The notes under the pieces are model-generated. The model was not told the origin of the DNA. It worked only from the letters and a program-made list of their open reading frames with translations, and did not search any database. DNA of 64,000 nt. Origin: Amycolatopsis sp. FBCC-B4732 (GTDB taxonomy: Bacteria; Actinomycetota; Actinomycetes; Mycobacteriales; Pseudonocardiaceae). A program made the position numbers and the translations under genes. The stretch lies in assembly GCF_023008405.1 (NCBI RefSeq), contig NZ_CP095376.1:3806001-3870000 (forward strand). Direction: 5' to 3'. Of the stretch, positions 28,766 to 47,075 are shown one piece after another (position 1 is the stretch's first letter; each line of letters opens with the position of its first letter).

Positions 28766-28779
28766 GGCTCGGGCTCCTT

Positions 28780-28801
28780 GATCGTCAAAGGATTGACTAT
28801 C
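28780..28801. promoter_or_regulatory. MarR-type operator in the divergent promoter
   Basis: Two 9-bp arms, GATCGTCAA (28780-28788) and TTGACTATC (28793-28801), form an inverted repeat with one mismatch and a 4-bp spacer, core GTCAAAGGATTGAC. It sits 15 bp upstream of the MBL gene start and 64 bp from the divergent MarR gene. Size and place fit autoregulated MarR control of the MBL-monooxygenase operon. Confidence 0.75.
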
Positions 28802-28864
28802 TTTCGGCCAGGCTAGCCCGCCGGCCCGCCGCACGGAACCCCCGCGTCGCCTAACCTTGGCCGC

Positions 28865-31191: not shown

Positions 31192-31356
31192 ACAACAAGA
31201 TTACCCGGCCATCGACCACATGTTCATCACTCGATCAGGTGGCGATGATCGTTGCGTGGGGAATCGGCACTGCCGACCACCACAAAAACGCAACCACCAC
31301 GAGCGCCGATTTCCCACGCCCCGGCGAAGCCGTATCAGTAAAGCCGAAAAAGGCTT

Positions 31357-31992
31357 TTAACTGGCAATCCCAGGCAAGCGCAGAGTGTGCCCAGTCTGCT
31401 CAGCCTTCGCCCGCAGGTACCGAACGTTGTTGTCAGTGGCGAAAACCCCAGTAGGCACCTGATCCCGCACCCCAATCCCAGCAGCCCGCAACTGAGCAGC
31501 CTTGTCAGGGTTGTTGGAGAGCAGATCGACCTCCCCGGCCCCCAGCGCCTTGAGCATCTGCGCGGCAACGGCGTAGTCCCGAGCATCCTCAGGCAACCCG
31601 AGCGCGGCATTGGCGGCATAGGTGTCAAGACCGTCATCCTGCAGCGCATAGGCGTCGAGCTTGTTGTAGAGCCCGATCCCCCGCCCCTCCTGCCGCAGGT
31701 AGAGCAGGTAACCACCCGCAGCGGAAATCCGTTCGACAGCCTCAGCCAACTGCGGCCCGCAGTCACACCGAGCGGACCCGAACACGTCCCCGGTCAGACA
31801 CTCGGAGTGCGGCCGGACGAGCGGAACCTCCCCCGGCGTACCGAGCACGAAGGCCAAGTGCTCCCCGCCGTCCGAGAGCCCCCGGAAGGTGACGGCTTCG
31901 GCGTCGACCTCGACGCCGCCGTGCAGGCGCAGCGGGATCCGCACCCGGGTCCGCACCTCGGCCGTCACGTCGTCGCCCCTGGATTCGCCCAC
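31357..31992 (-). CDS. ribA: GTP cyclohydrolase II
   Basis: A 211-residue stand-alone GTP cyclohydrolase II, which opens the imidazole ring of GTP with loss of formate and pyrophosphate at the start of flavin synthesis. Zinc ligands C65, C76 and C78 are in CLTGDVFGSARCDCG, and the catalytic arginine region is YLRQEGRGIGLYNKLDAYALQD. It is not fused to a RibB domain, and no other riboflavin genes are nearby, so it may serve a secondary flavin or deazapurine route. A TAGGGT box on the minus strand (32005-32000) would place the transcript start at the ATG. Confidence 0.95.
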   Translation of the reverse strand: MGESRGDDVTAEVRTRVRIPLRLHGGVEVDAEAVTFRGLSDGGEHLAFVLGTPGEVPLVRPHSECLTGDVFGSARCDCGPQLAEAVERISAAGGYLLYLRQEGRGIGLYNKLDAYALQDDGLDTYAANAALGLPEDARDYAVAAQMLKALGAGEVDLLSNNPDKAAQLRAAGIGVRDQVPTGVFATDNNVRYLRAKAEQTGHTLRLPGIAS

Positions 31993-32072
31993 AAGATCGA
32001 CCCTACACGAAGTTCAAATTCGAACACCGGCATGCGGGAAAACCGGTGGCGGGGCGGTCGTAAGCTCGGGCC

Positions 32073-32705
32073 ATGATCCCCGGCGCCACCGCGGCTTCCT
32101 TCCTCCTCGTCGTCATCCTGGGCGCGATGTCCCCCGGTCCGGACTTCATCGTGGTCACCCGGTCGTCCCTCACCGGGGGACGGCGGGCCGGGATCGCCGC
32201 CGGGTTCGGGATCGCGCTCGGGGTCTTCGCCTGGGTCGTGGCGATCGCGCTCGGGGTCGCCGCCGTGCTCACCGCCTCCGCGGTCGCCTTCACCGTCGTG
32301 AAGCTGGTCGGGGCCGGTTACCTCGTCTTCCTCGGGGTCAAAGCCTGGCTGGCCGTCCGGCGCGGGGAGTACCGGGACCTCGGGGCGGACGCGGACGAAG
32401 AGCCGCTCAAGGCGGCCGCCGCCTTCCGGCAGGGGTTGTTCACCAACCTGCTCAACCCCAAGGTCGCCGTCTACTTCCTCGCCCTGCTCCCCCAGTTCCT
32501 CCCCGCCGACGGCTCGACCCTGCAGACCCTCGAACTCGCCGCCATCGCGACCGCCGGCACCGTCTTGTGGTTCGTCACGCTCGCCGTGGTCGTCGGGGCG
32601 CTCAAGAAGGTCTTCCGCAACGGCCGGGTCCGGCGCGGGCTCGACGCCGTCCTCGGCAGCCTGCTCGTCGGGCTCGGCCTCAAGGTCGCCGCCACGACGG
32701 CGTGA
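32073..32705 (+). CDS. LysE/RhtB-family amino-acid exporter
   Basis: A 210-residue membrane protein with about six hydrophobic segments. The family signature is GAMSPGPDFIVVTRSSLTGG near residues 17-36, with the mid-protein GLFTNLLNPKVAVYFLALLPQF. RhtB/LysE proteins export amino acids such as homoserine, threonine or lysine; the cargo here is unknown. A TAAGCT box at 32061-32066 sits 6 bp before the ATG, which suggests a leaderless transcript. It ends 2 bp before the convergent MetE-like gene. Confidence 0.92.
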   Translation: MIPGATAASFLLVVILGAMSPGPDFIVVTRSSLTGGRRAGIAAGFGIALGVFAWVVAIALGVAAVLTASAVAFTVVKLVGAGYLVFLGVKAWLAVRRGEYRDLGADADEEPLKAAAAFRQGLFTNLLNPKVAVYFLALLPQFLPADGSTLQTLELAAIATAGTVLWFVTLAVVVGALKKVFRNGRVRRGLDAVLGSLLVGLGLKVAATTA

Positions 32706-32707
32706 GC

Positions 32708-33769
32708 TCAGCCGAGCTTCTCGGCCGCCAGGCGGGTGCCTTCGACCCGGGCCTTGATCTTCGCGAACGCGAGGTCGCGCGAAGTCGACGTGTCGTCCGC
32801 GAACGGCGAGAACCCGCAGTCGTCGCACGTCCCCAGCCGGTCGACCGGTACGTACCGGGCCGCCCGCAGCACCCGGTCGCGGACCTCCTCCGGGGTCTCC
32901 ACGCGCGGGTCGATCGGGTCGATGACGCCGACGAACACCCGCTGGTCCGCCTTCAGGTTCTCGGCGATGATCCCGAGCGCGCGGTCCGGGTCGGGCTCGC
33001 TGGCCAGCTGGACGAAGAAGCGCCCGGCCTTGAGGTCGAACAGCGCCGGCAGCAGGCCCGCGTAGTCGACGTCGAGGCTGTGCACCGAGTCCAGGTCACC
33101 GCCCGGGCAGGTGTGGACGCCGATCTTCGCGCGCTCCTCCGCCGTGAAGCGGTCGAGGACCGCGTTGTTCAGGTCGACGAACTGGCGCAGCAGGCCACCG
33201 GACGGGTCCAGCTTCAGCGAAAGCCGGCCCTCGGTGAAGTCGATCTGGACGCTGTCCGCGCCCGCGTCGAGGCTGCGCCGGATGTCCGCCTCGGCCTCGT
33301 TCACCAGGTCGGCGACGAACTGCTCCTGCGAGTACCCCTCGATGCCGTCGGCCGGGTAGATCAGCGAAAGCGCGGAGGCGGCGATCACCGCCTGCTTGAC
33401 CGGCTTGGCCGTGACCGCCTTCGCGCGCGTCAGGTACTCGTCCGCGTGGGTCGCGTAGCGGAACGGGCCCGCGGTCAGCCGCGGCAGCCGGCGGGTGTGG
33501 CCGTCGGCGAACGGGATGACGACGCCGTCCGGGGCCAGCGCCGTGAGTCCGGCCAGCGGGTACGTCGCGAAGCTCGGCTTCCCCTGCTCGCCGTCGGTCA
33601 GCACCGGGGACCCGGTCTCCTCGAACCGGCTGATCGTGTCGGCCAGCGCCCGGCTCTCCAGCTCGGCGAGCGCGGCGGCGTCGATCCGCCCGGCGGCGAA
33701 CTCCCCGAGGCCTTCGACGAGGTACGCCGGGCGGGGGATGCTGCCGATCGGTTCGGTGGGCAGGGTCAT
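32708..33769 (-). CDS. MetE-like cobalamin-independent methyltransferase-family protein
   Basis: A 353-residue protein matching only the C-terminal catalytic barrel of cobalamin-independent methionine synthase. The zinc-thiol site is kept: H219 and C221 in GVHTCPGGD, and C315 in GTCDDCGFS. Short MetE-C proteins include core methionine synthases, methylcobalamin-dependent enzymes and epoxyalkane coenzyme M transferases. Which applies is not clear, so I do not call it a methionine synthase. Start ATG 33769 is supported by GGAGGA 6 nt upstream. Confidence 0.85.
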   Translation of the reverse strand: MTLPTEPIGSIPRPAYLVEGLGEFAAGRIDAAALAELESRALADTISRFEETGSPVLTDGEQGKPSFATYPLAGLTALAPDGVVIPFADGHTRRLPRLTAGPFRYATHADEYLTRAKAVTAKPVKQAVIAASALSLIYPADGIEGYSQEQFVADLVNEAEADIRRSLDAGADSVQIDFTEGRLSLKLDPSGGLLRQFVDLNNAVLDRFTAEERAKIGVHTCPGGDLDSVHSLDVDYAGLLPALFDLKAGRFFVQLASEPDPDRALGIIAENLKADQRVFVGVIDPIDPRVETPEEVRDRVLRAARYVPVDRLGTCDDCGFSPFADDTSTSRDLAFAKIKARVEGTRLAAEKLG

Positions 33770-33948
33770 CGAGGTCCTCCAGCTGCTTGAAGGTGCAGGC
33801 GCGCGAAGAGGACACAACGGCCCCCATCCGTCACCCGGGCCGTCACCGGCCATGTTCGAAAGGCAACTTAACGTGCTCGCGGGCGGTCACGGAGCGCGGA
33901 TCACCCGGTCGGAGCAGCAAAAAGCACGAAATCAGAAGACGTTCGGCG

Positions 33949-33973
33949 GTTCGTTCGGAGGACGATTGGGTAT
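33949..33973 (+). promoter_or_regulatory. Sigma-B/F-like promoter upstream of the DUF3040 gene
   Basis: GTTC (33949-33952), a 15-bp spacer and GGGTAT (33968-33973) fit the actinobacterial general-stress sigma consensus (GNTT or GTTC, 14-16 bp, GGGTAT). The expected transcript start is near 33980, about 38 nt before the ATG at 34018. The rest of the gap 33770-34017 shows nothing else. Confidence 0.6.
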
Positions 33974-34017
33974 TCGCTCTGGCGACACGGCGGGTTCGGC
34001 GCCGAAGGAGTACCCCG

Positions 34018-34281
34018 ATGCTCAGTCACCACGATCGCACCGAGCTCGAGAAGATCGAGCGCAGTCTCGAGCTCAGCGACCCCGATCTGGCCACCGCGCT
34101 GCGCGACGGCAAGCGGCCGAAGTCGCGCGCGCTCCGGAGCACCCTCCTGATCTTCCTCGACGTCGTCGCCGTGACGCTGCTGGTCGTGGGACTGGTCCTG
34201 CCCGACCCCGGGGTGACGCTGTGCGGGATCATCGCGCTCACCGGCACCGTCTGGACCCACGTGGCGCGGCACCGGGTCTGA
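34018..34281 (+). CDS. DUF3040 small membrane protein
   Basis: An 87-residue DUF3040 protein: a charged N-terminal part (LSHHDRTELEKIERSLELSDP) followed by one or two hydrophobic segments (TLLIFLDVVAVTLLVVGLVL, GVTLCGIIALTGTVW). The function of the family is unknown. The start is ATG 34018 with AAGGAG 7 nt upstream. The sigma-B-like promoter suggests expression under osmotic or stationary-phase stress. dinB follows 15 bp later and may share the transcript. Confidence 0.85.
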   Translation: MLSHHDRTELEKIERSLELSDPDLATALRDGKRPKSRALRSTLLIFLDVVAVTLLVVGLVLPDPGVTLCGIIALTGTVWTHVARHRV

Positions 34282-34296
34282 GGCGAGACTGGGCCC

Positions 34297-35334
34297 GTGA
34301 AGTGGGTCCTGCACGTCGACCTCGACCAGTTCATCGCCGCGGTCGAGGTCGCCCGCCACCCGGAGCTCGCGGGCAAGCCCGTCGTCGTCGGGGGCAACGG
34401 CGACCCCACCGAACGCGCCGTCGTCGCGACCGCTTCGTACGAAGCCCGCGAGTTCGGCATCCAGTCCGGCATGCCGCTGCGGCTCGCGGCGAAGCGCTGC
34501 CCGGACGCCGTCTTCCTGCCCAGTGACCCGGACGCCTACCTCGAGGTGTCGGCGCGGGTGATGGCGGTGCTGCGGGAGTTCCCGGTCGTCGTGCAGGTGC
34601 TGGGCTGGGACGAGGCGTTCCTCGGCGCGGAAGCCGACGACCCCGAGGCGCTCGCGGCCGAGCTGAAGGCCGCCGTGGCCCGCGAGACCGGCCTGTCGTG
34701 CGCGGTCGGGATCGGCGACAACAAGCTGCGGGCCAAGCTCGCCACCGGTTTCGGCAAACCGGGCGGGATCTACCGGCTGACGCAGGAGAACTGGTGGGCC
34801 GTGATGGCCGGGCGCCCGACCGACGCGCTGTGGGGCATCGGCGGCAAGACGGCGAAGAAGCTGGCCGAGCTGGGCATCGAGACCGTCCTCGACCTGGCGG
34901 GCGCGGACGCGGCGGCGCTGGCCGCGCGGTTCGGCCCGAAGACCGGGCCGTGGCTGCGGCTGCTCGGCGGCGGCATCAGCGACGCGGACGTCAGCGCGAC
35001 CCCGTACGTCGCGCGCTCCCGCAGCCGCGAGACGACGTTCCAGCGCGACCTCACCGACCCGGCCCAGATGGCGGCGGAGGTCTCGGCGCTGGCGAAGCGG
35101 GTCACCCAGGACGTCCTGGAGGAGGGCCGCCCGGCGGCGCGGATCGCGGTCAAGGTGCGGTTCGTGCCGTTCCTGACCCACACGCACAGCATCACGTTGC
35201 CGGAGCCGACCTCGGACGCGGCGGAGATCGACCGGGCGGCGCGCGAGGTGCTGGGGATGTTCGAGCTGACCCGCGCGGTACGGCTGCTGGGGGTGCGGGC
35301 CGAGTTCGTCCGGGAGGACGAGGACCAGTTGTGA
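34297..35334 (+). CDS. dinB: Y-family DNA polymerase IV, DinB2-like with a non-aromatic steric gate
   Basis: A 345-residue Y-family translesion polymerase. The N-terminus reads VLHVDLDQFIAAVE: metal ligand D8 is present, F12 is kept, but the steric-gate position 13, normally Phe or Tyr, is Ile. Catalytic D105-E106 lie in VLGWDEAFLG. HhH and little-finger domains follow (PTDALWGIGGKTAKKL near residue 170). Mycobacterium smegmatis DinB2, recalled to have Leu at this site, uses ribonucleotides readily, so a similar relaxed sugar choice is predicted. No beta-clamp motif QLxLF is evident at the C-terminus, which ends EFVREDEDQL. The start is GTG. Confidence 0.92.
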   Translation: MKWVLHVDLDQFIAAVEVARHPELAGKPVVVGGNGDPTERAVVATASYEAREFGIQSGMPLRLAAKRCPDAVFLPSDPDAYLEVSARVMAVLREFPVVVQVLGWDEAFLGAEADDPEALAAELKAAVARETGLSCAVGIGDNKLRAKLATGFGKPGGIYRLTQENWWAVMAGRPTDALWGIGGKTAKKLAELGIETVLDLAGADAAALAARFGPKTGPWLRLLGGGISDADVSATPYVARSRSRETTFQRDLTDPAQMAAEVSALAKRVTQDVLEEGRPAARIAVKVRFVPFLTHTHSITLPEPTSDAAEIDRAAREVLGMFELTRAVRLLGVRAEFVREDEDQL

Positions 35335-35394
35335 AGGCCTTCGGAGGCGAAGTGGAGCTGTTGAGGAACCGCTTCACCCACCGGAGGCCTTCGT

Positions 35395-35848
35395 GTCGTC
35401 GAGCAGGGCTGGACCTGCACAGCGGCGGCGAAGATGTTCATGGTCACCAACGAAACCGCCCGCAAATGGGCCGACCGCTACCGCACCGAAGGCGTGACCG
35501 GGATGACCGACCGCGGCAACCGCCTGTCCCGCATCGACGTCACCAAGTTCGGCACCATCCCCGACGAGAAAGCCGACACCGCCGTCGGTGTCCTCCACCG
35601 CGCGCTCACCTGATTCGCCGACCACACCGTCACCGTCGAACGCGTGTCATCGGACAACAGCGCCTGGTCCCCGGCCTGGCGCGAGGCCTGCACCGAGCTG
35701 GGCACCACCCCGAAACGAACCCGGCCCCACCAGCCACAGACCAACAGCAAGATCGAGCGCTTCCACCAGACCCTGGCGAGGGCTGGGCCCACGCCCGCTT
35801 CCCGCAAGCCACCCATCACCCGGCTGACCAACCTCCCGGACAGAAAAC
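35395..35848 (+). pseudogene. IS481-family transposase relic
   Basis: Fragments of an IS481-type transposase. First the N-terminal helix-turn-helix (VVEQGWTCTAAAKMF, ETARKWADRYRTEG). Then a jump over much of the catalytic core to DVTKFGTIPDEKADTAVGVLHRALT, an in-frame TGA at 35611-35613 where the family has Trp, and FADHTVTVERVSSDN, then RTRPHQPQTNSKIERFHQTL with the DDE-region glutamate. A further frameshift follows. The central part of the catalytic domain is deleted, and no terminal inverted repeats were recognised. The element is dead. Confidence 0.88.
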
Positions 35849-36496
35849 CTAGAACTCCTCCGGCAGCGGCAACGGCCGGTCCGGGTCCACTTCCACCCCG
35901 CCGGCCCTCAGCGTGTGGTCCAGCATCGCCCAGATCGTGCCCGTGAGCTGGTCCGTCAGCTGCGCCAAGCTCAACGTGCCCGGGTGGTCGAGCCACCGTG
36001 TCGTCGCCGACTCGACGTAGCCGACCAGGCCGAACGCGATCGTGTCCGCCGGGGCCGGGTCGAGGCCGAACGCCGTCAGGTAGCCCGAGAACAGGCCGCT
36101 GAGGTGGCGGGCGATCGTGCCGCGGACGTCCGTCGTGCCCGGGCCGGTGCGCAGCAGGTAGCGGTGCAGGTGGACGTGTTCGGTGAGCCAGCGCAGGTGG
36201 GTCGAGATGACCGCCGAGATCATCTCGTTCGGCGAGCCCGACGGGTGCCACAGCGGGGCGAGCTCGGCCGTCACCAGCTCGGCCGCGCGCTCGGCGATGG
36301 CGCGCTGGAGGTCGGCCGCGTCGGCGAAGTGGCGGTAGAGCCGGGTGCGGGCCACGCCGGCGCGCTCGGCGATCTGCTCCGTCGAGACCTCCGGGCCGTG
36401 CTCGGCGATGGCCGCCAGCGCCGCGTCGACGAACTCCGCGCGCCGCCGTTCCTGCTGGCCCGCCCAGCGCGCCGCCCGTCCGTCGACCTTGGTCAC
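35849..36496 (-). CDS. TetR-family transcriptional regulator
   Basis: A 215-residue TetR regulator with the N-terminal helix-turn-helix VSTEQIAERAGVARTRLYRHFADAADL (residues about 38-64) and a helical ligand-binding domain. It is divergent from the AurF-like oxygenase gene, with an 88-bp gap holding AT-richer partial palindromes (ACTAGT at 36546-36551; GTA and TAC flanks). That layout suggests it controls the oxygenase and itself. It ends at the edge of the IS481 relic. Confidence 0.92.
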   Translation of the reverse strand: MTKVDGRAARWAGQQERRRAEFVDAALAAIAEHGPEVSTEQIAERAGVARTRLYRHFADAADLQRAIAERAAELVTAELAPLWHPSGSPNEMISAVISTHLRWLTEHVHLHRYLLRTGPGTTDVRGTIARHLSGLFSGYLTAFGLDPAPADTIAFGLVGYVESATTRWLDHPGTLSLAQLTDQLTGTIWAMLDHTLRAGGVEVDPDRPLPLPEEF

Positions 36497-36584
36497 CCGG
36501 GAAGCCTACTCAAGTCCCGCGCGCCGGTGTACGCTCGCCGAAGTAACTAGTACATCGCGTACCCCCTACTTTCCGGAGGCCGCC

Positions 36585-37475
36585 ATGGGCGTCGAGGCCC
36601 AGGACCGGGACGTCACCGCGGCTCGTCTGCTCAAGAGCTCCGCGAAGAACTCCTACGACCCCTACGTCGACATCGACTGGGCCGCGCCGCTCGCCGAGGG
36701 CAAGGCCTACATGCCGCTCGAGCGCGTCTCCCTCTACGGCACCGAGCTGTGGGCGAGGCTGACGCCGGAGCAGCGGATCGAGCTGTCCAAGCACGAGATC
36801 GCCAGCATCATGAGCGTCGGCCTGTGGTTCGAGATCGTCCTCATGCAGCTGCTCGCCCGGTACGTCTTCGACCTGGACGCGCGCAGCGAGCACGCGCAGT
36901 ACGCGATGACCGAGATCGGCGACGAGACCCGGCACTCGGTGATGTTCGCCCGCACCGCCGAGCGGCTCGGCGTCCCGCGCTACGGCGTCCCGAAGGTGGT
37001 GCACCGCGCCGCCAAGGTGTTCGGCGCGACGGCGGCCGGCCCGTCGATGTTCGCCAGCGTGCTCGTCGCCGAAGAGACCACCGACCGGCTGCAGCGCTCG
37101 ATGATGGACGACGACGGCATCCAGCCGCTGATCCGCTCGGTCAACCGCATCCACGTCGTCGAGGAGGCGCGGCACGTCCGCTTCGCCAAGGAAGAGGTGC
37201 TGCGGGAGACGCCGAAGCTGTCGAAGGCGAGCCTGCGGCGGCACCGGGTGCGGACCGCGCTCGTCGCGTTCGGCGTCATCGACAGCATGGTCGACCCGCG
37301 GATCTACCGCAGCGTCGGGATCGACCCGCGCGAGGGCCGGGCCGCGGCGCTCGCGAACCCGCACTTCCACGAAACGCGCCGCTGGATGGCCGAGAAGATC
37401 GTGCCGTTCCTGCGCGACGCGGGGCTGATCGGCGGCCGGTCGGAGGGCATCTGGCGGCGCGCCCATCTCGTTTGA
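36585..37475 (+). CDS. AurF-like di-iron oxygenase
   Basis: A 296-residue ferritin-like di-iron protein of the AurF family, whose founder oxidises the amino group of p-aminobenzoate to a nitro group. The set of ligands matches AurF: E83, E114 and H117 in EIGDETRHS, E163 in VAEETTDR, and H190, E194 and H197 in HVVEEARHVRF, including the AurF-specific H-x3-E-x2-H that adds a third histidine. Start ATG 36585 has CCGGAGG 8 nt upstream. No biosynthetic cluster surrounds it, so it could be an N-oxygenase, a decarboxylase or another acting enzyme with an unknown substrate, under the divergent TetR. Confidence 0.88.
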   Translation: MGVEAQDRDVTAARLLKSSAKNSYDPYVDIDWAAPLAEGKAYMPLERVSLYGTELWARLTPEQRIELSKHEIASIMSVGLWFEIVLMQLLARYVFDLDARSEHAQYAMTEIGDETRHSVMFARTAERLGVPRYGVPKVVHRAAKVFGATAAGPSMFASVLVAEETTDRLQRSMMDDDGIQPLIRSVNRIHVVEEARHVRFAKEEVLRETPKLSKASLRRHRVRTALVAFGVIDSMVDPRIYRSVGIDPREGRAAALANPHFHETRRWMAEKIVPFLRDAGLIGGRSEGIWRRAHLV

Positions 37476-37532
37476 GGCACTGACGGCGGAATTCCCTTCG
37501 CACCGATTGCCCGGTTCCGCCACGATGCCCGG

Positions 37533-38186
37533 GTGACCGCTGAGATCCCCGCCGCCCCGGCGCCGCCGCGGCGCTCGCCGTTCGCCCACCCCGTGTTCGC
37601 CGGCCTGATCGGGGTCATCGTCGGCGCGGTGCTGGTCGGCGTGCCGTGGCTGGCGCTGACCCTGCTCGGCGGGCCGAGCGGGCGCGCGCTGAGCGTGCCC
37701 TCGAGCCTCGGCGGGCTCGGCCGCACCCAGGACACGCTCGCGAAGTTCGACGTGGAGAAGAGCAAGGTCCAGGTCGCCCGCGTCGACAAAGCCGACCGGG
37801 AAACGGCCGCCCGGACGTCGGCGGCCTACGGCGGCGCGGGCGCGGTGGTGCAGCAGTACCAGGACGACCGGCTGGAACGCAGCTTCCAGCTGATCGCGGT
37901 GCGCGCGGGGTCACCGGAGCTGGTGGCGCCGTACGAGGACGCCGAGGAACTCGGCCTGGCCGCCCCGAGCACCGAACTGGTGCGCGTCGGCGCCGTGCAG
38001 TGCCTGGTCCACAACGACGCCGCGGCCGCGGGCTCGACGCCGGACCCCGACCGGTCGTTCGTCACCCACTGCCAGCGCAGCGGCCCGGACCTGACCGTCA
38101 CGCTGCGCAGCATCTCGGCCGAGGGCAACCGCGACCCCCGCGAGCTGGCCGGGATCGTCGAAGAAGCCTGGAAGGAACTTTCGTGA
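37533..38186 (+). CDS. Membrane-anchored hypothetical protein
   Basis: A 217-residue protein with a Pro-rich N-terminus, one membrane segment at about residues 20-46 ([20 protein letters not shown]) and an extracytoplasmic domain of about 165 residues. Two cysteines (QCLVHND, HCQRSG) could form a disulfide. No family is recognised. The GTG start gives a short charged-free N-terminus. It is coupled to the acetyltransferase gene by a 4-bp GTGA overlap. Confidence 0.75.
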
Positions 38187-38668
38187 CGACCACCGTCCGG
38201 CCGGCCCGAGCCGGCGACGAAGCCGCGCTCGCCAAGATCGACGAGCGCACGTGGGACTCCACGGTGTCCCCCGCTCCCCCGCCGCCGCCCGGCACGCCGT
38301 TCTTCGACGAGGGCGCGCGGCCGGAGAACTTCCTCGTCGCCGAGCACGACGACGTCGTCGCCGGGTACGTCCGGCTCGCCGAGGGGTTCGGCATCCCGGC
38401 CCACGCGCACGTGCTGGTGGTCGGCGGGCTCGCCGTCGACCCGGACCGCCAGGGCCTCGGCATCGCGGGACGGCTGGTGGACGCGGCCGCGGCGGAGGCG
38501 CGCCGGCGCGGGGCCCGCAAGCTGACGCTGCGCGTGCTGGGTCACAACGCCGCCGCCCGCCGGGTCTACGAGCGGTCGGGGTTCGTCGTGGAAGGCGTGC
38601 TGCGCGGGGAATTCCGCATCGACGGCACCGATGTCGACGACGTTCTCATGGCCCTTTCGCTCGCTTGA
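38183..38668 (+). CDS. GNAT-family N-acetyltransferase
   Basis: A 161-residue GCN5-related acetyltransferase. The acetyl-CoA-binding motif A is [22 protein letters not shown] (Q/RxxGxG/A, residues about 77-98), with the typical C-terminal [22 protein letters not shown]. The substrate is unknown. The GTG start overlaps the upstream stop, so it is translated with the membrane protein. Confidence 0.93.
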
Positions 38669-38701
38669 CAGCTTCCCGGCGGCTTTGCCATCCTGGGTCC
38701 C

Positions 38702-38769
38702 GGGCCGAGAGGCGCTGCGACGGAACTCTTTCCGCCACGCTCGGCCCGCGACACGCATCCAAGGGCGCC
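38702..38769 (+). promoter_or_regulatory. S-adenosylhomocysteine (SAH) riboswitch
   Basis: An SAH aptamer in the ahcY leader. P1 is a perfect 8-bp stem, GGGCCGAG (38702-38709) with CTCGGCCC (38740-38747). The conserved core AGGCGCTGCGACGG follows P1. P2 ends in CGGAA (38721-38725) with TTCCG (38730-38734) and a 4-nt loop. The pseudoknot strand GGCGC (38711-38715) can pair with GCGCC (38765-38769). Bases 38764-38773 are also the left arm of a terminator, so SAH binding would release the RNA from termination and switch on SAH hydrolase. Confidence 0.9.
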
Positions 38770-38793
38770 TCCCGCGAGGGAGGTGCCTTTTTT
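38764..38793 (+). terminator. Intrinsic terminator of the SAH riboswitch
   Basis: GGCGCCTCCC (38764-38773) pairs with GGGAGGTGCC (38778-38787) across a GCGA loop, with one G-U pair, and is followed by six T residues (38788-38793). T-tailed terminators are rare in this GC-rich DNA. The left arm overlaps the aptamer pseudoknot strand. Confidence 0.9.
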
Positions 38794-38871
38794 GGTGTCA
38801 CAGCCGTCCGCCGTCACCCCGGTGAGTCCTCCCGCGCGCTCCGCAACCAGCCTCAGGAAAGAGCTCGAGGA

Positions 38872-40332
<1,461 letters not shown>

Positions 40333-40452
40333 TCCGAGATTGCTCCGTTTGACGCAGTTTGCCGAAGCGCGAAAGTGGCCATCCTCCCCGTGACAGCGCA
40401 TCCGCCCGGCCGGCATGCCGGACGGAACCCATGCGAAGGAGTGTGTGTCAAA

Positions 40453-40608
40453 GTGATCGTTCTCGGTGTAATTCTCCTGATCATCGGGTTCATCGTGGGT
40501 ATCCCGGTGCTTTACACCATCGGCATCATCCTCGCGGTGGCCGGCGTGGCACTGGCCATCCTGGGCGGCACCGGCCGCCGGATCGGTGGACGTGCGCACT
40601 GGTACTGA
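40453..40608 (+). CDS. DUF6131-like tiny membrane protein
   Basis: A 51-residue protein of two hydrophobic helices (VIVLGVILLIIGFIVGIPVL, GIILAVAGVALAILGG) and a short basic tail GRRIGGRAHWY. I recall this arrangement as the DUF6131 family of actinomycetes; the function is unknown. The GTG at 40453 is preferred. AAGGAG lies 12 nt upstream, a long spacing, and the in-frame GTG at 40441 is too close to that site. Confidence 0.75.
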   Translation: MIVLGVILLIIGFIVGIPVLYTIGIILAVAGVALAILGGTGRRIGGRAHWY

Positions 40609-40635
40609 TGAATGAACGGCCCGCGGCCTGGCGCG

Positions 40636-41090
40636 TCAGCAGCAATGCTGACCGCGCCAGGCCGTTCGGCCTTCTCGCACCACCACGGCGATCGCGAGCG
40701 CGACCGCCGGATCGGCCCACCACCAGCCGAACAGGGCGTTGAGCGGTAACCCCGCCAGCAGCACCGCGGAAAGGTAAGCGCAGAGCAAAGTCTGCCGCGA
40801 ATCCGCGACCGCGCCGGCCGACCCCAGCTCCCGCCCGGCGCTGCGCCGCGGCCAGGATGGGCATCACGGCGAGCGAAACCGCCGCGAGCACGATTCCCGT
40901 GCGTGAGGTTTCCGGCGCGGCACCGCCGAAGAATGTGCCTGCGGCCTCGACCGTGACGTAACCCGCGAGCGCGAAAAACGACAGGGCGATCATTTTCAGT
41001 GCCCGCCGTTCGCGCTTTTCCGGGTCCTCACCGGAAAACTGCCAGGAGACCGCGGCCACGGAGGCGACTTAGATCAAGGAATCGAGTCAT
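40636..41090 (-). pseudogene. Decayed cation-efflux (CDF-type) transporter
   Basis: Remnant of a cation transporter. The start region MTRFLDL at 41090 is joined out of frame to AAVSWQFSGEDPEKRERRALKMI, so the first three membrane helices (roughly 90 residues) are deleted. The frame then runs to AAQRRAG, where a single-base change near 40834 shifts it. The natural sequel, ELGSAGAVADSRQTLLCAYL through NALFGWWWADPAVAL to WRGQHCC and a stop at 40636-40638, is readable only in the next frame. It once followed arsR with an ATGA overlap. Confidence 0.8.
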
Positions 41091-41370
41091 GCCGGCTCGC
41101 CTTCGTCCCGCGGTTCGACCGCCGGCACGACGTGGACGAGCTCCCGCAGCGCGCGGGCCAGGCGCGCGTCCGCGATCTCGTACCGCACCTGACGCCCCTC
41201 GTAGCCGGCCACGACGAGCCCGCAGCCGCGCAGGCACGACAGGTGGTTCGAGACGTTCGGCCGCCAGCCGGCCCGGGTAGGCAGGACCGTCGAGCGCCCT
41301 CAGGATCCGGCAGCGGGTCGGGTCGGACAGCGCGCGCCCGATCCGGGCGAGTGCCGCTTCCCACGTCGCA
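41087..41370 (-). pseudogene. Decayed ArsR-family metal regulator
   Basis: The ArsR parts lie in two frames. TWEAALARIGRALSDPTRCRIL and DGPAYPGRLA come first. A deletion of about 20-45 bases then removes most of the recognition helix, and PNVSNHLSCLRGCGLVVAGYEG, RQVRYEIADARLARALRELV and the end EGEPA follow in another frame. No start codon remains in the first frame; it meets TAA upstream. The DNA-binding helix is destroyed, so it cannot repress. The adjacent transporter is broken too. Confidence 0.82.
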
Positions 41371-41461
41371 AAATAAGGGGTCCTCCGGCTCCGAGGGGGA
41401 GGGAGAGCCGAAGGACCTCGTTAGTGTTAGCACATCGCCAAGCCCGTGTACACAGCTGCAT

Positions 41462-41473
41462 ACACGATCGTGT
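41462..41473. promoter_or_regulatory. 12-bp palindrome, possible relic operator
   Basis: ACACGATCGTGT is a perfect palindrome about 60-90 bp upstream of the arsR relic, next to a second short palindrome GTGTACAC. ArsR/SmtB operators are AT-richer 12-2-12 repeats as a rule, so the assignment is weak. Confidence 0.3.
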
Positions 41474-41498
41474 TACCGCTTTGACTGTCCTAACGCCA

Positions 41499-41545
41499 CG
41501 AAGGCCTCCCCGGCCGGCGCGTGGCACCCGGCGGGAAGGCCTTCG
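41499..41545 (-). terminator. Hairpin terminator after the Cys-rich gene
   Basis: CGAAGGCC (41499-41506) pairs with GGCCTTCG (41538-41545), and the stem extends inward with mismatches. It lies 19 bp after the stop of the small Cys-rich gene on the minus strand and would end the Ku transcript as well. Confidence 0.65.
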
Positions 41546-41563
41546 CGGATCCTGGCGGGAGGC

Positions 41564-41770
41564 TCAGGAAGCTCGGCGCAGCAACGATTTCTCCGGTGCG
41601 GCGGTGCAGGCGCAGCCGCCGGGGGCCGGGCAGTCGACGATCAGCGCGTGCCGCACCCGATCGGGGTCCGCGCACGCGGTGTCGGTGCACTCGGCGAACC
41701 CGCGTTCCGGGTGCACCACCAGCGTGCCGTGGCAGTGGTCGATCCGGGCCTCACACGAAGCACACTCCAT
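41564..41770 (-). CDS. Small Cys-rich putative zinc-binding protein
   Basis: A 68-residue protein with paired cysteines and histidines: MECASCEARIDHCHGTLVVHP, ECTDTACADP and DCPAPGGCACT. I recall actinomycete proteins of the same shape (CxxC, DHCHGTLVVH, CxxxxC) without a known function; a zinc ribbon is likely. It lies 75 bp downstream of ku on the same strand and may share its transcript. A hairpin follows. Confidence 0.75.
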   Translation of the reverse strand: MECASCEARIDHCHGTLVVHPERGFAECTDTACADPDRVRHALIVDCPAPGGCACTAAPEKSLLRRAS

Positions 41771-41845
41771 GAGTCCTTGGTACCACCGGGAAGCGGGCGG
41801 GCCCGGGACCGGGACGGCGTGTCGGCGCGACCACCCGTCCGGGGC

Positions 41846-42745
41846 TCACGCGGACTTCGGCGCCCGCTTCCGCGCGGCCGGCTTCTTCTTCGCCGCCGGC
41901 TTCGCGTCCTCATCGGACCCGTCCTCCTCGGACGCCTCCGAAGTGGACGCGTCCGAAGCGGACTCGCGCGACTTCTTCGCCGCGTCGACGCTGGCCTGCA
42001 GTGCCGCCATCAGGTCGACGACGTCCGCCTTCGCGGTGACCGCGGCGGGCTTGGTCGTCTCCTCCCCCGCGACCTTGGCCTCGATCATCTCCTCGAGGGC
42101 CTCGCGGTAGTGGTCGTGGTACTTCTCCGGCTCGAACACCGGCTCGGCCAGCGAGTCGATCAGCGAGCCGGCCATGGACAGCTCCTGCGGGCGGATCTGC
42201 GGCGGGTCGTCGCGCAGGAACGGGAAGTCGGGTTCGCGGACCTCGTCCGGCCACAGCATCGTCGTCATCACCAGCACGTCGGCGTGCACCCGCAGCACCG
42301 CCATGCTCTCCCGCTGCCGGACCGCGACCTTCGCGACGGCCACCTGGCTCGACTTGTGCAGCGCGTCCCGCAGCACGACGTACGGCTTCACCGCGTTCTT
42401 CTGCGGCTCCAGGTAGTAGGTCCGGTCGTACTGGATCGGGTCGATCGACTCCAGCGGCACGAACTCCAGGACGTCGATCGTGCGCTGCGAGGACAGCGGC
42501 AGCTCGGCCATCTCGGCGTCGGTGATCACGACCATCTCGCCGTCGGGCAGCTCGTAGCCCTTGGCGATCTCCGGGTACGGGACCTCGGCGCCGTCGATCG
42601 TGCAGAACCGCTTGTACTGGATGCGGCCGCCGTCGGCCTCGTGCACCTGGCGGAGCGAGACGTTCTTGTTCTCGGTGGCCGCGTACAGCTGGATCGGGAT
42701 GCTGACCAGCCCGAACGACACCGAGCCCTTCCACATCGCCCGCAT
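41846..42745 (-). CDS. ku: Ku protein for non-homologous end joining
   Basis: A 299-residue bacterial Ku that forms a ring on double-strand DNA ends and recruits LigD. The core runs from MRAMWKGSVSFGLVSIPIQLY to about residue 260 (RYxPEKYxDxYRxAL-type FEPEKYHDHYREALEEMIEAK). It ends in a Lys/Ala-rich tail (KPAAKKKPAARKRAPKSA) thought to bind DNA or LigD. The ATG at 42745 is chosen over one nine codons upstream because GGAGGTG lies 7 nt before it and the N-terminus is canonical. A LigD-like phosphoesterase lies 9 kb away, but no LigD polymerase is in the window. Confidence 0.95.
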   Translation of the reverse strand: MRAMWKGSVSFGLVSIPIQLYAATENKNVSLRQVHEADGGRIQYKRFCTIDGAEVPYPEIAKGYELPDGEMVVITDAEMAELPLSSQRTIDVLEFVPLESIDPIQYDRTYYLEPQKNAVKPYVVLRDALHKSSQVAVAKVAVRQRESMAVLRVHADVLVMTTMLWPDEVREPDFPFLRDDPPQIRPQELSMAGSLIDSLAEPVFEPEKYHDHYREALEEMIEAKVAGEETTKPAAVTAKADVVDLMAALQASVDAAKKSRESASDASTSEASEEDGSDEDAKPAAKKKPAARKRAPKSA

Positions 42746-42819
42746 GCCACGCACCTCCGAGATCGTCTTCACGCTCGGTAGTTACCGTAGCCCGAATCGT
42801 CCCCCGGCGACAGTCCGAT

Positions 42820-44046
42820 CTAGACCTCTGCCAGGTACTTCTCCCACTTGGCGGGGTCGAGGAACCAGTGCTGGAAGTCGGTCGGGTCGGTGAACCCGTT
42901 GGCGAACCTGCGGGCCACGGCCGGGTTCTGCCCCGCGACGCCGAGGATCTGGAGCACGTGCGGAGGCGGCGGCAGGAGCAGCGCGTTGGTCCATTCGGTG
43001 ACGTGCCGGGCGTACTCCCAGTAGCGCTCGAACGTGGCGTCCATCCACTCCGCGTCGAACGGCCGGTCGCCGTGCTCGAGGATCGCGGTCAGGTAGGTCG
43101 CCGCGCAGTGGCTCGCGTTGTTCGAGCCCTGCCCGGTGATCGGGTCGTTCGCCACGACGACGTCGGCCATGCCCAGCACCCGCGCCCCGCCCGGCAGGAT
43201 GCCGACCGGGTTGCGCACGACGGGCGTGTACCCGCCGGCCAGCGCCGCCTTGCCGTCGGTGAGCTCGGCGTCGCGGCAGCGCTCGTACTCCCACGGCACG
43301 AACTGCCGCATCAGGTCGAGCAGCCGCGTGAAGTGCTCGGCCGGTGCCGGGTGGTCGCCGAAGCAGTCCAACGGCCCGCCCGGGACGCCCTCGAAGAAGA
43401 GGATGTCGCAGTTCCCGCTCAGCGTGTACGCCGGGATCATGAACAGCTCGCCGACGCCGGGCACGATGGTGAACCGCACGGCCTGCTTGTCCGGGTGCTC
43501 CGGCCGCGGCCGCACGCCGTGGGCGTAGACCAGCGAGAGCGCGCGCATCGGCTTCGTGTACGGCGACCGCTCGGGCACGCGGTCGAACAGCTGGACCAGC
43601 TCGCCCTTGCCGGCCGAGACGATCACCAGGTCGTAGAGCCGGGACAGCGCGTCCAGTTCGGACGTCATCACGCCGTGGATGACGAGCTTGCCGCCGCGGT
43701 CCTCGAACAGCTCCAGCCAGCCCGCCATCTTCACGCGCTGGTCGACCGACTGCGCGTAGTGGTCGAGCTCGGCGAACCAGTCGAGCGCGCGGCCGCCGTC
43801 CGGCGCCGCCACCGACACGCCGAGGCCCTCGACCCGGACGGTCTCGTCCTCCCACTGGTTCAGCCCGAGGTCCCGCTCGTGCTGCAGCGCGTCGTTGAAC
43901 ATGCACTGCGTCGACATCACCCGCCCGGCCCGGATCTCCTCCGGCGTCCGCGCGGACATCACCGTGACGTCGTAGTCCTTCGCCAGCAGCCCGAGGGCCA
44001 GCTGCAGCCCGGACTGGCCGGCGCCCACGATCAGGACTCTGCGCAT
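42820..44046 (-). CDS. Styrene-monooxygenase-like FAD flavoprotein
   Basis: A 408-residue flavoprotein resembling StyA, the FADH2-using oxygenase of styrene monooxygenase. FAD binds the N-terminal VLIVGAGQSGLQLALGLL; VMSTQCMFNDALQHERDLGL and NDPITGQGSNNASHCA (the second FAD segment near residue 300) are characteristic of the group. It needs reduced FAD from a reductase, and none is next to it. It lies 19 bp after cvnD on the same strand with GAGGAG 11 nt upstream, so it is read as the fifth gene of the conservon. The substrate is unknown. Confidence 0.88.
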   Translation of the reverse strand: MRRVLIVGAGQSGLQLALGLLAKDYDVTVMSARTPEEIRAGRVMSTQCMFNDALQHERDLGLNQWEDETVRVEGLGVSVAAPDGGRALDWFAELDHYAQSVDQRVKMAGWLELFEDRGGKLVIHGVMTSELDALSRLYDLVIVSAGKGELVQLFDRVPERSPYTKPMRALSLVYAHGVRPRPEHPDKQAVRFTIVPGVGELFMIPAYTLSGNCDILFFEGVPGGPLDCFGDHPAPAEHFTRLLDLMRQFVPWEYERCRDAELTDGKAALAGGYTPVVRNPVGILPGGARVLGMADVVVANDPITGQGSNNASHCAATYLTAILEHGDRPFDAEWMDATFERYWEYARHVTEWTNALLLPPPPHVLQILGVAGQNPAVARRFANGFTDPTDFQHWFLDPAKWEKYLAEV

Positions 44047-44065
44047 GAAGCTCTTCTCTCCTCGT

Positions 44066-44686
44066 TCAGGCCTGCGGGACGCTGCCGGCCAGCTCGCGCG
44101 GGCCGGACAGCACGGCGAGGGACAGCGTGTGGCCGACCAGCTCGGTCAGGGTGGCGATGGTCGAAGCCCGGTCGCGGGCGTCGCAGGTGACCAGCGGGAC
44201 GCTCGGGTCGAGGGCGAGCGCGTCCCGCACCTCGTCGAGGTCGTGCACCGGCATGCCCTCGAACTGGTTGACCGCGACCACGAACGGCAGCTCCGAGTCG
44301 TTCTCGAAGTAGTTGATCGCCGCGAACGACTCGTCGATCCGGCTGGTGTCGACGAGCACGACCGCGCCGAGCGCGCCGCGGCTCAGGTCGTCCCAGAGGA
44401 ACCAGAACCGCGCCTGCCCCGGCGTGCCGAACAGGTACAGCAGCAGGTCCGGGCGCAGCGTGATCCGCCCGAAGTCCATCGCCACGGTCGTGGTCGACTT
44501 GCCGCCGGGCGGGATGTCGTCGACGCCTTCGCCGGCCTCGGTCATCCACGCCTCGTTGCTCATCGGCGGCACTTCCGACACCGCGCCGACGAACGTGGTC
44601 TTGCCGACACCGAAGCCCCCGGCGACGACGATCTTCGCGGAGATCGTCAGCAGATCGCCCTCAGGCGGGGAGCCGCTTGAGCCCAT
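44066..44686 (-). CDS. cvnD: Conservon GTPase CvnD
   Basis: A 206-residue Ras-like small GTPase of the CvnD/MglA-related group. The P-loop is VVAGGFGVGKTTFV, switch II is YLFGTPGQARFWF, and the base-recognition motif is AVNQFEG in place of NKxD. It acts as a GTP switch at the membrane with CvnA-C. The ATG at 44686 follows a TTG one codon upstream; it overlaps cvnC by 26 bp. Order cvnA-B-C-D is complete here. Confidence 0.94.
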   Translation of the reverse strand: MGSSGSPPEGDLLTISAKIVVAGGFGVGKTTFVGAVSEVPPMSNEAWMTEAGEGVDDIPPGGKSTTTVAMDFGRITLRPDLLLYLFGTPGQARFWFLWDDLSRGALGAVVLVDTSRIDESFAAINYFENDSELPFVVAVNQFEGMPVHDLDEVRDALALDPSVPLVTCDARDRASTIATLTELVGHTLSLAVLSGPRELAGSVPQA

Positions 44687-45029
44687 CAAGGATCCTCTCG
44701 AGCACGTTGGTGTCGTGGTGGTAGGCGTGCGCGGTGGGGTGGACGAACACCGCGCCCTGGGAGGCGAGGTCGCCGATCAGCACCCGCACCACGCCCAGCG
44801 GCAGGTCCAGCCCGACCGACAGCTCGGCGATCGAGGACCGCACGCGGGCGCGTTCGTAGAGCGAGCGCGACTCGGGCATCAGCGTGTCGCTCAGCGCCGG
44901 GTCGTACTGCGGGACCGAAACCAGCGTCTCCACCAGCAATTGGTGGCGGGTGCTGGTGCGGCCGCCGGTGAGCGCGTACGCCCGGATCCGGCGGCTGCGC
45001 CGCGGCAAGGCGGTGTCCTTCTCGGACAC
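44661..45029 (-). CDS. cvnC: Conservon protein CvnC (DUF742)
   Basis: A 122-residue DUF742 protein with a winged-helix-like core: RIRAYALTGGRTSTRHQLLVETLV, RARVRSSIAELSVGLDLPLGVVRVLIGDLASQG and the conserved end LERILDGLKRL. The GTG at 45029 has a strong GGAGGTG site 6 nt upstream. An ATG at 45056 that overlaps the cvnB stop (TGATG) is the alternative and adds nine residues. It belongs to the membrane-associated complex of conservons. Confidence 0.93.
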   Translation of the reverse strand: MSEKDTALPRRSRRIRAYALTGGRTSTRHQLLVETLVSVPQYDPALSDTLMPESRSLYERARVRSSIAELSVGLDLPLGVVRVLIGDLASQGAVFVHPTAHAYHHDTNVLERILDGLKRLPA

Positions 45030-45055
45030 GGGGATCACCTCCTCGGGCACGCCCA

Positions 45056-45493
45056 TCACACCCGCGGCCGGCGCGCGGTGAGCACCTGGCGCAGTTCGGC
45101 GCGCACCTCGGGGGTGAGCGCGTGGCCGGCGTTGGTGATGAACTGGGTCATCTCGTAGGCGACCACCTTCATGTCCGCGTCGCCCGTGGTCAGCACCGCG
45201 AGCCCGGCACCGGAGCCGATGCCCATGAAGAGGAAGTAGCCGTGGGTGAGCCGGATGATGATCTGCTCGCAGGCGCCCTTCCCGAACAACGCGGCGCTGT
45301 TGCCGGCCAGCGAGAGCAGGCCGCTGGCGATCGCGGCCAGCTGCTCGGCCTCCGCATCGCCGACCGAGTCCGACGCGGTGAGCGGGAAGCCGTCGACGCT
45401 CATGATCAGCGCGTGGCTGACGCCGTGCACCTTGCGGACGAAGTCGTCGAGCAGCCAGGCGAAGTTCGCCGGTGCCGGGTGGTGGGCGCTCAC
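45056..45493 (-). CDS. cvnB: Conservon protein CvnB (roadblock/LC7)
   Basis: A 145-residue roadblock/LC7-domain protein, probably a regulator or GTPase-activating partner of CvnD. Core sequence: FAWLLDDFVRKVHGVSHALIMSVDG, GLLSLAGNSAALFGKG and YFLFMGIGSGAGLAVL. The start is GTG, overlapping the cvnA stop by 4 bp. Confidence 0.95.
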   Translation of the reverse strand: MSAHHPAPANFAWLLDDFVRKVHGVSHALIMSVDGFPLTASDSVGDAEAEQLAAIASGLLSLAGNSAALFGKGACEQIIIRLTHGYFLFMGIGSGAGLAVLTTGDADMKVVAYEMTQFITNAGHALTPEVRAELRQVLTARRPRV

Positions 45494-46725
45494 GAGCCGG
45501 TTCCTCCGGGCGTTTCGTCCTGCTGGTGGTTTTCGGCGCGCGCGGCCCGCTCGCCGTCGGCGAAGGCGCCGAGGTCGGCGAGCAGCTGCTCGTGCCCGTT
45601 CGCCGCCGGTTCCGCGGCCGGGGGCGGCGGTGGCGGTTCGGGCGCGGCACCGCGGATGCTGCCGGGCACGCGCCGCGGCAGGCCGTTGGCGGTGGTGCCG
45701 CCGGTGGCCCGCTCGACCGGCCGCGGCCGGGGCGTGGGCTTGCGCGGCACCGGCGCGGGCTCCTCCCGCGGGAAGGCACCCGGGCGGCGGCGCGGCAGCC
45801 CGCCGGCCGCGACCGGCTCGCCGCCGGTCTTCGCCGGTTCGATCGTGACGGTCCGGGCGCCCGACCAGGCGTTGTCGGCGAGCTCGGTGACCACGCCGGT
45901 GGGCAGCAGCACGGTCGCGACCGTGCCGTGCGGGCTGCGCCGGTCCAGGCGCACGCTGACGTCGTGCCGCGCGGCGAGGCGGGCGACGACGGCGAGGCCC
46001 ATGTGCCGCGCCGAGGCGTCGTCGAGGTCGCCGCCCGCGGCCAGCCGCCGGTTGAGGCCGTCGACGCGGTCGGCGGGGATGCCGATGCCCTCGTCCTCGA
46101 TCCGGACGAGCACGCTGCCCTGCTCGGTCAAGTGCGCGCTGACGTGCACCGGCGAGCTGGGCGAGGACTGGTTGGCGGCGTTGTCGAGCAGCTCGGCGAG
46201 CACCCGGCCCAGGTCTTCGGCGGCGAAGCCGACGACCCCGAGGTTCACCACGCGGCCGATGGTGATCCGGGCGTAGTGGTCGATCGAGGACATCGCGGCG
46301 CGCACGAGGTCGAGCACCGAGGTCGCGCGGGCGGCGTCGTCGGCGGTGTCCTGCCCGGCCAGCACGCGCAGGTTCTCGGCGTTGCGCCGCAACCGCGTGG
46401 CGAGGTGGTCGAGCTGGTAGAGCTCGGCGAGGCGGTGGTGGTCCTCCTCCCCCGCTTCGAGTTCTTCGAGCCGCGCGAGGAGCTGGTCGAGCAGGTTGAG
46501 GTCACGCAGCGCGACACTGGCGCAGATCTCGGCCAGCACGCCCTCGTTCCGCGTGTCCTCGGGGGTGATCACCTCGGGCCGCGACAGCTCCGCGATGGCC
46601 GGCCCGGCCGTGGGCTCGTACCCGGGGTGCTTCGGCGGCGCGGTGAGGTACTGCGCGGCAGCGACCCGCGAGCGGTCCAGCAGGACGCGTGATCGATCCA
46701 GGAGTTCCCGGGCCCGGCTCGCCAT
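45490..46725 (-). CDS. cvnA: Conservon sensor CvnA (histidine-kinase-like ATPase), soluble form
   Basis: A 411-residue sensor of the conservon. The H-box-like region DHLATRLRRNAENLRVLAG (H107) is followed by a HATPase domain: N-box ELLDNAAN (N182) and G-box EDEGIGIP (210-217). The tail after residue 300 is long, Pro/Arg-rich and disordered. CvnA proteins usually have N-terminal membrane helices and an extracellular sensor; neither is present here, so this is a shortened cytoplasmic form. Upstream, 350 bp separate it from the divergent TetR gene. Confidence 0.92.
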   Translation of the reverse strand: MASRARELLDRSRVLLDRSRVAAAQYLTAPPKHPGYEPTAGPAIAELSRPEVITPEDTRNEGVLAEICASVALRDLNLLDQLLARLEELEAGEEDHHRLAELYQLDHLATRLRRNAENLRVLAGQDTADDAARATSVLDLVRAAMSSIDHYARITIGRVVNLGVVGFAAEDLGRVLAELLDNAANQSSPSSPVHVSAHLTEQGSVLVRIEDEGIGIPADRVDGLNRRLAAGGDLDDASARHMGLAVVARLAARHDVSVRLDRRSPHGTVATVLLPTGVVTELADNAWSGARTVTIEPAKTGGEPVAAGGLPRRRPGAFPREEPAPVPRKPTPRPRPVERATGGTTANGLPRRVPGSIRGAAPEPPPPPPAAEPAANGHEQLLADLGAFADGERAARAENHQQDETPGGTGS

Positions 46726-47075
46726 GTGGTCCCACTTCTTCCTTGCTCAGATTCGGCAACGACAGCATCGCGCCGACCCCCGGGCGGCGATGCCGGACAT
46801 GCAAGCAGAAAGGTTCGTCGGATGTCCACAGCGGGTCCCCGTCCGATCGCGCGGGGTGATCGGTTTTCGGCGCCGTCGCTGCTGGTGAGCGCAGCGGACT
46901 AGGCCATTCGGTTCATTTTTGCATCTTGCACCTGGCAACAGAGCGCACACGACGCCCGATACCGCAGGCAACCGGGCCCCGTACCGCGAAATCCCAGGTC
47001 GCGCCCGATTCGTCCGAAAATTGCGGGCCACGCACTTTTTTGCGGGCCACGCAACTTTTTCGCTAAACTCCGTTC
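46726..47075. other. 350-bp divergent region between cvnA and the TetR gene
   Basis: No gene is seen. The cvnA side is GC-rich without a clear promoter. The TetR side holds the direct repeats and -10 box listed at 47021-47069. A moderately AT-rich stretch lies at 46905-46930. Confidence 0.6.
47021..47069 (+). promoter_or_regulatory. TetR promoter with tandem operator-like repeats
   Basis: TTGCGGGCCACGCA occurs at 47021-47034 and again at 47040-47053, a 19-bp period, each followed by a CTTTTT run. The second copy overlaps the expected -35 region. A TAAACT -10 box (47064-47069) lies 6 bp before the ATG at 47076, so the transcript is probably leaderless. The repeats are likely binding sites of the TetR protein itself. 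Confidence 0.6.

Follow-up and report, generated by a model that had tools for sequence, protein, structure and literature searches.

Does the leader of ahcY, the gene for S-adenosylhomocysteine (SAH) hydrolase, sense SAH in Amycolatopsis sp. FBCC-B4732, and at which step and in which direction would it then control the gene? SAH inhibits methyltransferases and Amycolatopsis species produce methylated antibiotics, so clearance of SAH should matter to these organisms. The founding paper of the SAH riboswitch class is reportedly that of Wang et al. in Mol Cell in 2008. The DNA analysed here, referred to as the window, comprises 64,000 nt (GCF_023008405.1, contig NZ_CP095376.1, positions 3,806,001–3,870,000, forward strand), and all features given by window coordinates lie on its plus strand.

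An SAH aptamer in front of ahcY

In a cmscan search of the 64-kb window the SAH riboswitch (RF01057) was the sole Rfam family to reach its gathering threshold, at positions 38701–38777 (38.8 bits against 37, an excess of just 1.8 bits; E 0.0012 for the whole window), and this match was also recovered in the genome-wide search. Base by base, the leader can form an 8-bp P1 (38702–38709 with 38740–38747), a P2 hairpin at 38721–38734 (5 bp, 38721–38725 with 38730–38734) and a 5-bp pseudoknot between GGCGC (38711–38715) and GCGCC (38765–38769). The first-pass annotation had assigned 38702–38793 to an SAH aptamer overlapping a terminator on account of these pairings, and had proposed the covariance-model search as a check: reading and search both bear it out, and its coordinates are right. 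The downstream gene that it had called ahcY (38872–40332, 486 aa), the presumed target of control, is upheld by matches to PF05221 (480 bits) and PF00670 (254 bits). With a score above gathering, formable P1, P2 and pseudoknot, and a gene of SAH/methionine recycling behind it, the leader belongs to the SAH riboswitch class. The aptamer is ordinary for this known class, and we judge the element to be an authentic SAH riboswitch with a predicted platform acting on transcription, very probably as an ON switch.

Statistical support for the pseudoknotted SAH fold is given in the accessible part of PMC2891591, and a Kd of 20 nM with at least 1000-fold discrimination against SAM is cited in the available portion of PMC11188199. 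The SAM/SAH riboswitch (RF01727) gave no match at gathering in the window, and assignment of the leader to that class was rejected because RF01057 alone reached gathering. RF01727 also has a pseudoknot fold (PMC7367207, as far as its accessible text goes) and accepts both SAM and SAH in vitro but, in the part of PMC2864571 open to us, is reported from Rhodobacterales only, before metK.

The pseudoknot strand lies in a T-tailed hairpin

The 3′ strand of the pseudoknot is wholly contained in a second structure. Positions 38764–38773 can pair with 38778–38787 (10 bp, GCGA loop), and T6 follows at 38788–38793. Counting AAG/TTT, the hairpin extends to 13 bp (38761–38790). As in an intrinsic terminator, a G+C-rich stem (13 pairs, 8 of them G-C) thus has a T run at once behind it. 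Sequence reading confirms the earlier claim that the pseudoknot strand is inside the left arm of a T-tailed hairpin at 38764–38793; pseudoknot and hairpin are mutually exclusive pairings. The calculated energy of 38764–38793 was −22.9 kcal/mol, and removal of the pseudoknot strand (38770–38793) left a 4-bp stem of −6.0 kcal/mol, in a program that scores neither pseudoknot nor ligand. In this ligand-free model, part of the 5′ strand of the pseudoknot was paired within the P1-P2 region.

We examined how unusual such a hairpin is in the window. A loose terminator scan of 28001–48000 yielded 8 sites against 7.1 in shuffles, a number no higher than chance; seven of these sites had 5 or 6 pairs, the ahcY hairpin 13. 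A stricter scan (stem of at least 8, T-rich tail) of both strands of the window retained 2 sites, both on the plus strand, compared with 2 altogether in 15 first-order random sequences of equal length, scanned on one strand each. Only two T runs of at least 6 occur in the 64 kb, again on the plus strand with both strands scanned, and one of them is the ahcY tail. Stem length, rarity in the strict scan and the two T runs together indicate that the hairpin and its tail are not background. A chance hairpin was accordingly rejected, on this scarcity and on the double covariation of the last pseudoknot base described below. The annotation had further held that T-tailed terminators are rare in this kind of genome; this is correct for the window as judged by the strict scan, but fails at ahcY throughout the genus, where a T run is the rule (50/52).

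Upstream of P1 lies a promoter-like element at 38665–38694, with TTGACA (38665–38670), an 18-base spacer and CATCCT (38689–38694). TTGACAG followed about 18 bases on by CCAnnnTGG recurred in nearly all displayed ahcY leaders of the genus; it was missing from L005 and L217, stood about 40 bases farther upstream in a minority, and some rows of the comparison end at an edge. A strict sigma-70 scan did not list 38665–38694, so that it is from conservation that we infer a promoter here, with a putative RNA start at about 38700–38702, at the first base of P1. TTGACA also contains the stop codon (38666–38668) of the gene preceding the leader, which encodes a GNAT acetyltransferase.

A second SAH switch before metH

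The genome (10.19 Mb, one contig) carries two SAH riboswitch matches. The second, absent from the first-pass annotation, scored 44.5 bits (positions 1501–1579 of its extracted locus, L001) and is followed by a gene whose product, like MetH, has a homocysteine methyltransferase domain and a pterin-binding one. After the pseudoknot strand this leader reads GCCTCCC-GACAAA-GGGAGGC, with the GTG start of metH 6 bases past GGGAGG. Aptamer, pseudoknot strand GCGCC and the GCCTCCC/GGGAGG hairpin arms are common to both switches, whereas at metH no T tail follows the hairpin and the ribosome-binding site is contained in its right arm. The missing T tail and the distance of GGGAGG from the GTG predict control of metH at translation. 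Matching arms thus appear to build a terminator in the ahcY leader and, before metH, to cover the ribosome-binding site.

One pseudoknot base covaries with two partners

Related loci were collected. Among 384 loci, 6 gave no pseudoknot candidate and 378 were parsed; genomes arriving by two routes are counted twice in the pseudoknot and platform tallies of these 378. The pseudoknot was GGCGC/GCGCC in 352, AGCGC/GCGCT in 11 (one genus) and GGCGT/ACGCC in 11 (four families). The other four comprised two single variants and two mis-registered rows (L279, L283), which were excluded from the set of 324 distinct relatives used for P1 and P2 variation. The sets of distinct elements (326 and 324) drop exact copies only.

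In 317 of 326 distinct elements, a hairpin of at least 5 pairs uses the last pseudoknot base. This base was C with G at both partner positions in 308/317, and T with A at both in 9/317. A base with two alternative partners is expected to show just this, a change matched in two places at once; the nine T/A cases, metH leaders of one genus, probably represent one event. All five pseudoknot bases were within one unbroken stem in 138/317. Variation elsewhere was also compensated: P1 pairs 5–7 across the set of 324, although non-standard bases frequently face each other at the outermost position of P1, the inner P2 pairs, and the inner pair of the terminator stem. At inner stem pair 12 of the hairpin, the 66 distinct T-tailed ahcY copies carried C-G (27), T-A (14), T-G (4), G-C (3) or G-T (1).

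No hairpin of at least 5 pairs on the last pseudoknot base was found in 9/326 elements, six of them in named Actinomycetospora. The Actinomycetospora-type ahcY leaders (L059, L098, L122, L127, L129, L133, L306) keep the aptamer and miss this hairpin, and to judge from their sequences they probably use another platform.

These data bear on a different reading of the locus, in which the hairpin is a constitutive terminator of the acetyltransferase gene and its overlap with the aptamer has no regulatory role. In its favour, the acetyltransferase gene precedes the leader in the same orientation, and none of the other sites in the 20 kb scanned resembles a terminator as closely. Against it, a conserved promoter-like element at and after the acetyltransferase stop codon intervenes before the hairpin, the hairpin persists at metH without a T tail and with its arm as ribosome-binding site, and covariation ties the last pseudoknot base to both of its partners. 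We rejected this explanation as very improbable. Even less credible is a decayed switch, whose aptamer no longer binds and whose hairpin terminates at a fixed rate: the covariance-model score barely above gathering would suit it, but a copy is retained on the ahcY side in 62/72 matched genus genomes (52 directly before ahcY, 10 with a reversed gene between) and the stems are kept by compensated changes.

Expression platforms at ahcY and metH

Comparison across the genus separated the two genes. Of its 126 matches, 124 were parsed (L269 and L270 were not, so that genome G056, with two more matches, enters as metH only): 62 lie before metH, 52 directly before ahcY and 10 before ahcY with an intervening gene. 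A T run of at least 3 within 12 bases behind the hairpin was present in 50/52 direct ahcY copies, 1/10 with an intervening gene and 0/62 metH copies. The run has 3–4 bases in 26/52 direct copies and 2 bases in L028 and L217; in these short-T copies termination may be partial. By genome, 42 combine a direct ahcY copy with a metH copy, 10 have metH and an intervening-gene ahcY, 10 ahcY only and 10 metH only. The predicted pair, T-tailed at ahcY and tailless at metH, was seen in 40 of the 42 genomes with both copies, the genomes of L028 and L217 being the exceptions.

In the 10 matched genomes (of 72) with an intervening gene (L221, L203, L227, L228, L237, L247, L248, L252, L259, L188), a methyltransferase-domain gene on the opposite strand separates switch and ahcY; in L221 this arrangement covers 301–1280, with the switch at 301–378 and the ahcY ATG at 1280. 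Third codon positions vary most in the methyltransferase frame (five pairs compared), which identifies it as the coding one. A transcript from switch to ahcY would be antisense to this gene, given its orientation. A metF-ahcY operon was rejected for these copies since the gene in between is oppositely oriented and codes for a methyltransferase.

Within and beyond the genus, the 378 parsed loci precede metH (221), ahcY (139) or other genes (18). At metH, a start codon lies 4–16 bases past the right arm in 216/221 rows, and a T run of at least 3 occurs in 1/221. For ahcY, T runs of at least 3 were found in 51/62 rows of the genus and 24/77 outside it, so that T-tailed ahcY hairpins are not a phylum-wide feature. 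Outside the genus, 31/77 ahcY rows have a possible start codon 4–16 bases past the right arm; the test counts any in-frame start, and the right arm was unparsed in 1/221 metH and 10/139 ahcY rows.

We then mapped these states on a tree of 102 AhcY fragments, near copies included, which holds 45 of the 62 ahcY rows from the genus (the others were left out as too short or as identical sequences); it is midpoint-rooted with unsettled bootstrap and gives no direction of change. The state with a T run and a distant start codon was found in 54 tree rows, among them 42 of the 45 from the genus, and was clustered (9 changes compared with 33.8 when shuffled). Well-supported branches force at least 4 changes of platform state. 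In a clade of 15 Micromonosporaceae rows the start codon is beside the right arm, and four Actinoplanes of this clade also have T4.

Could the ahcY switch act mainly on translation, with hairpin and pseudoknot affecting ribosome loading and the T tail incidental? Start codons 4–16 bases past the right arm, at metH and in the 31/77 ahcY rows outside the genus, fit such control. In the window, however, the ahcY ATG at 38872 is 78 bases downstream of the T tail and has its own AGGAAAG 10 bases upstream, and T runs of the genus accompany distant starts in 42/45 tree rows. We regard mainly translational control of ahcY as unlikely, and control at transcription as the better account of this locus.

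Spread of SAH switches and unusual downstream genes

At E 0.001, 72/80 Amycolatopsis genomes had a match; 46/80 had one above the cut-off, and 26 of the 72 matched genomes had none above it. In wider samples, which overlap and each include the genome studied here (G000), matches were found in 106/200 genomes of the family, 41/249 of the order and 32/296 of the class, while 14 control genomes gave no SAH riboswitch match. Where more than 40 genomes were searched together, stricter filtering applied, at the cost of weak matches. After the first survey, 94 family matches outside the genus were without a locus, and loci were taken for 60; at least 120 stretches were chosen by the standard pseudoknot pattern, and are thus no census and biased to the consensus.

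The view that most SAH riboswitches are proteobacterial, expressed in the first-pass annotation, has to be adjusted, these switches being common in this part of the Actinomycetota at the frequencies just given. The accessible portion of PMC3766115 places their greatest abundance in beta- and gamma-proteobacteria and reports them from Mycobacteriaceae too. The part of PMC4239095 available to us gives ahcY and metF as the proteobacterial core, with metH added in Comamonadaceae, and states that SAH switches of Proteobacteria do not control metK.

Several actinobacterial elements precede other genes. In L313 and L317 (L349 and L355 represent the same genomes), a switch lies before a metK-like gene with ahcY about 1.2 kb downstream; SAM synthetase domains were confirmed for L313, whose switch, at 36.3 bits, is slightly below gathering. 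Five switches (L060, L079, L169, L154, L334) precede adenosine-deaminase-like genes, called by PF00962 for L169 and L154 and by eye for the other three. SAH hydrolysis also releases adenosine, whose removal would pull the AhcY reaction. Switch-like elements before MOSC-domain proteins were seen in L032 (PF03476) and, by eye, in L036, L135, L151, L314 and L315; we know of no link between these proteins and SAH recycling. A methyltransferase-domain gene follows the switch in L092 (Nocardia carnea) and L384 (same order). Finally, a switch-like element in L161 (4481–4557, minus strand; 33.8 bits, below gathering) precedes a 289-aa reading frame without a Pfam match in its first 150 residues.

Discussion

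We conclude, with a probability of about 0.82, that the leader senses SAH and, as a riboswitch controlling transcription, switches ahcY on. The ON direction had been proposed in the first-pass annotation, with SAH blocking termination; it is inferred from the mutual exclusion of pseudoknot and hairpin, and T runs, covariation and start-codon distances favour it. What is predicted here from sequence, an approach blind to Rho- and NusG-dependent effects, comprises the binding of SAH, the promoter with its RNA start, the termination event and the sense in which ahcY is controlled. In the proposed scheme, RNA polymerase would start at or near P1 and first make P1, P2 and both pseudoknot strands. 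At high SAH, the ligand would bind and lock the pseudoknot, so that the left arm of the hairpin is occupied; with only the 4-bp remnant left to form, polymerase would read through and SAH hydrolase would be made. At low SAH, the hairpin 38764–38787 would form as it emerges, followed by the U tail, and transcription would stop with 78 bases still to go to the ahcY start. For metH, stabilisation of the pseudoknot by SAH would, through the same competition, uncover the ribosome-binding site.

Known systems offer partial parallels. The ahcY leader of Burkholderia glumae (L385, 55.2 bits) has AAAGGAGG between the covariance-model match and the start codon, and visual inspection of this interval showed T runs of at most 3; the leader described here differs in that its pseudoknot strand doubles as the left arm of a T-tailed hairpin. 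As a single proteobacterial example the B. glumae leader is uninformative for the class. The metXZ element of beta-proteobacteria, in the accessible text of PMC4239095, is similar in having a predicted pseudoknot followed by a terminator hairpin in methionine metabolism, but sits before metX/metZ, and that text names no ligand for it. In the literature within our scope, which left aside subscription papers and the founding paper of 2008 and so is weak evidence of novelty, we found no description of a pseudoknot strand shared with a terminator or of the metH/ahcY pair.

In this small and self-contained example, the pseudoknot that would bind the ligand is itself the predicted antiterminator, and the high-G+C window around it has few T-tailed hairpins. 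We lean towards one architecture with two read-outs per cell, the Amycolatopsis hairpin masking the ribosome-binding site at metH and terminating at ahcY; as part of the same reading, and held with the same confidence, the ahcY start codon would have moved away, with a U tract behind the stem. This predicted pairing of termination with translation, built on a shared hairpin, is a platform variant specific to the lineage, and its presence in one genome deserves specialist attention. The same aptamer can be compared there under transcriptional and translational control. With platform states spread over the genus and its neighbours, the evolution of expression platforms can be put to a direct test. 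If the two-read-out reading is true, ahcY and metH would form a natural pair in which the expression platform passes between translation and transcription while the aptamer remains unchanged.
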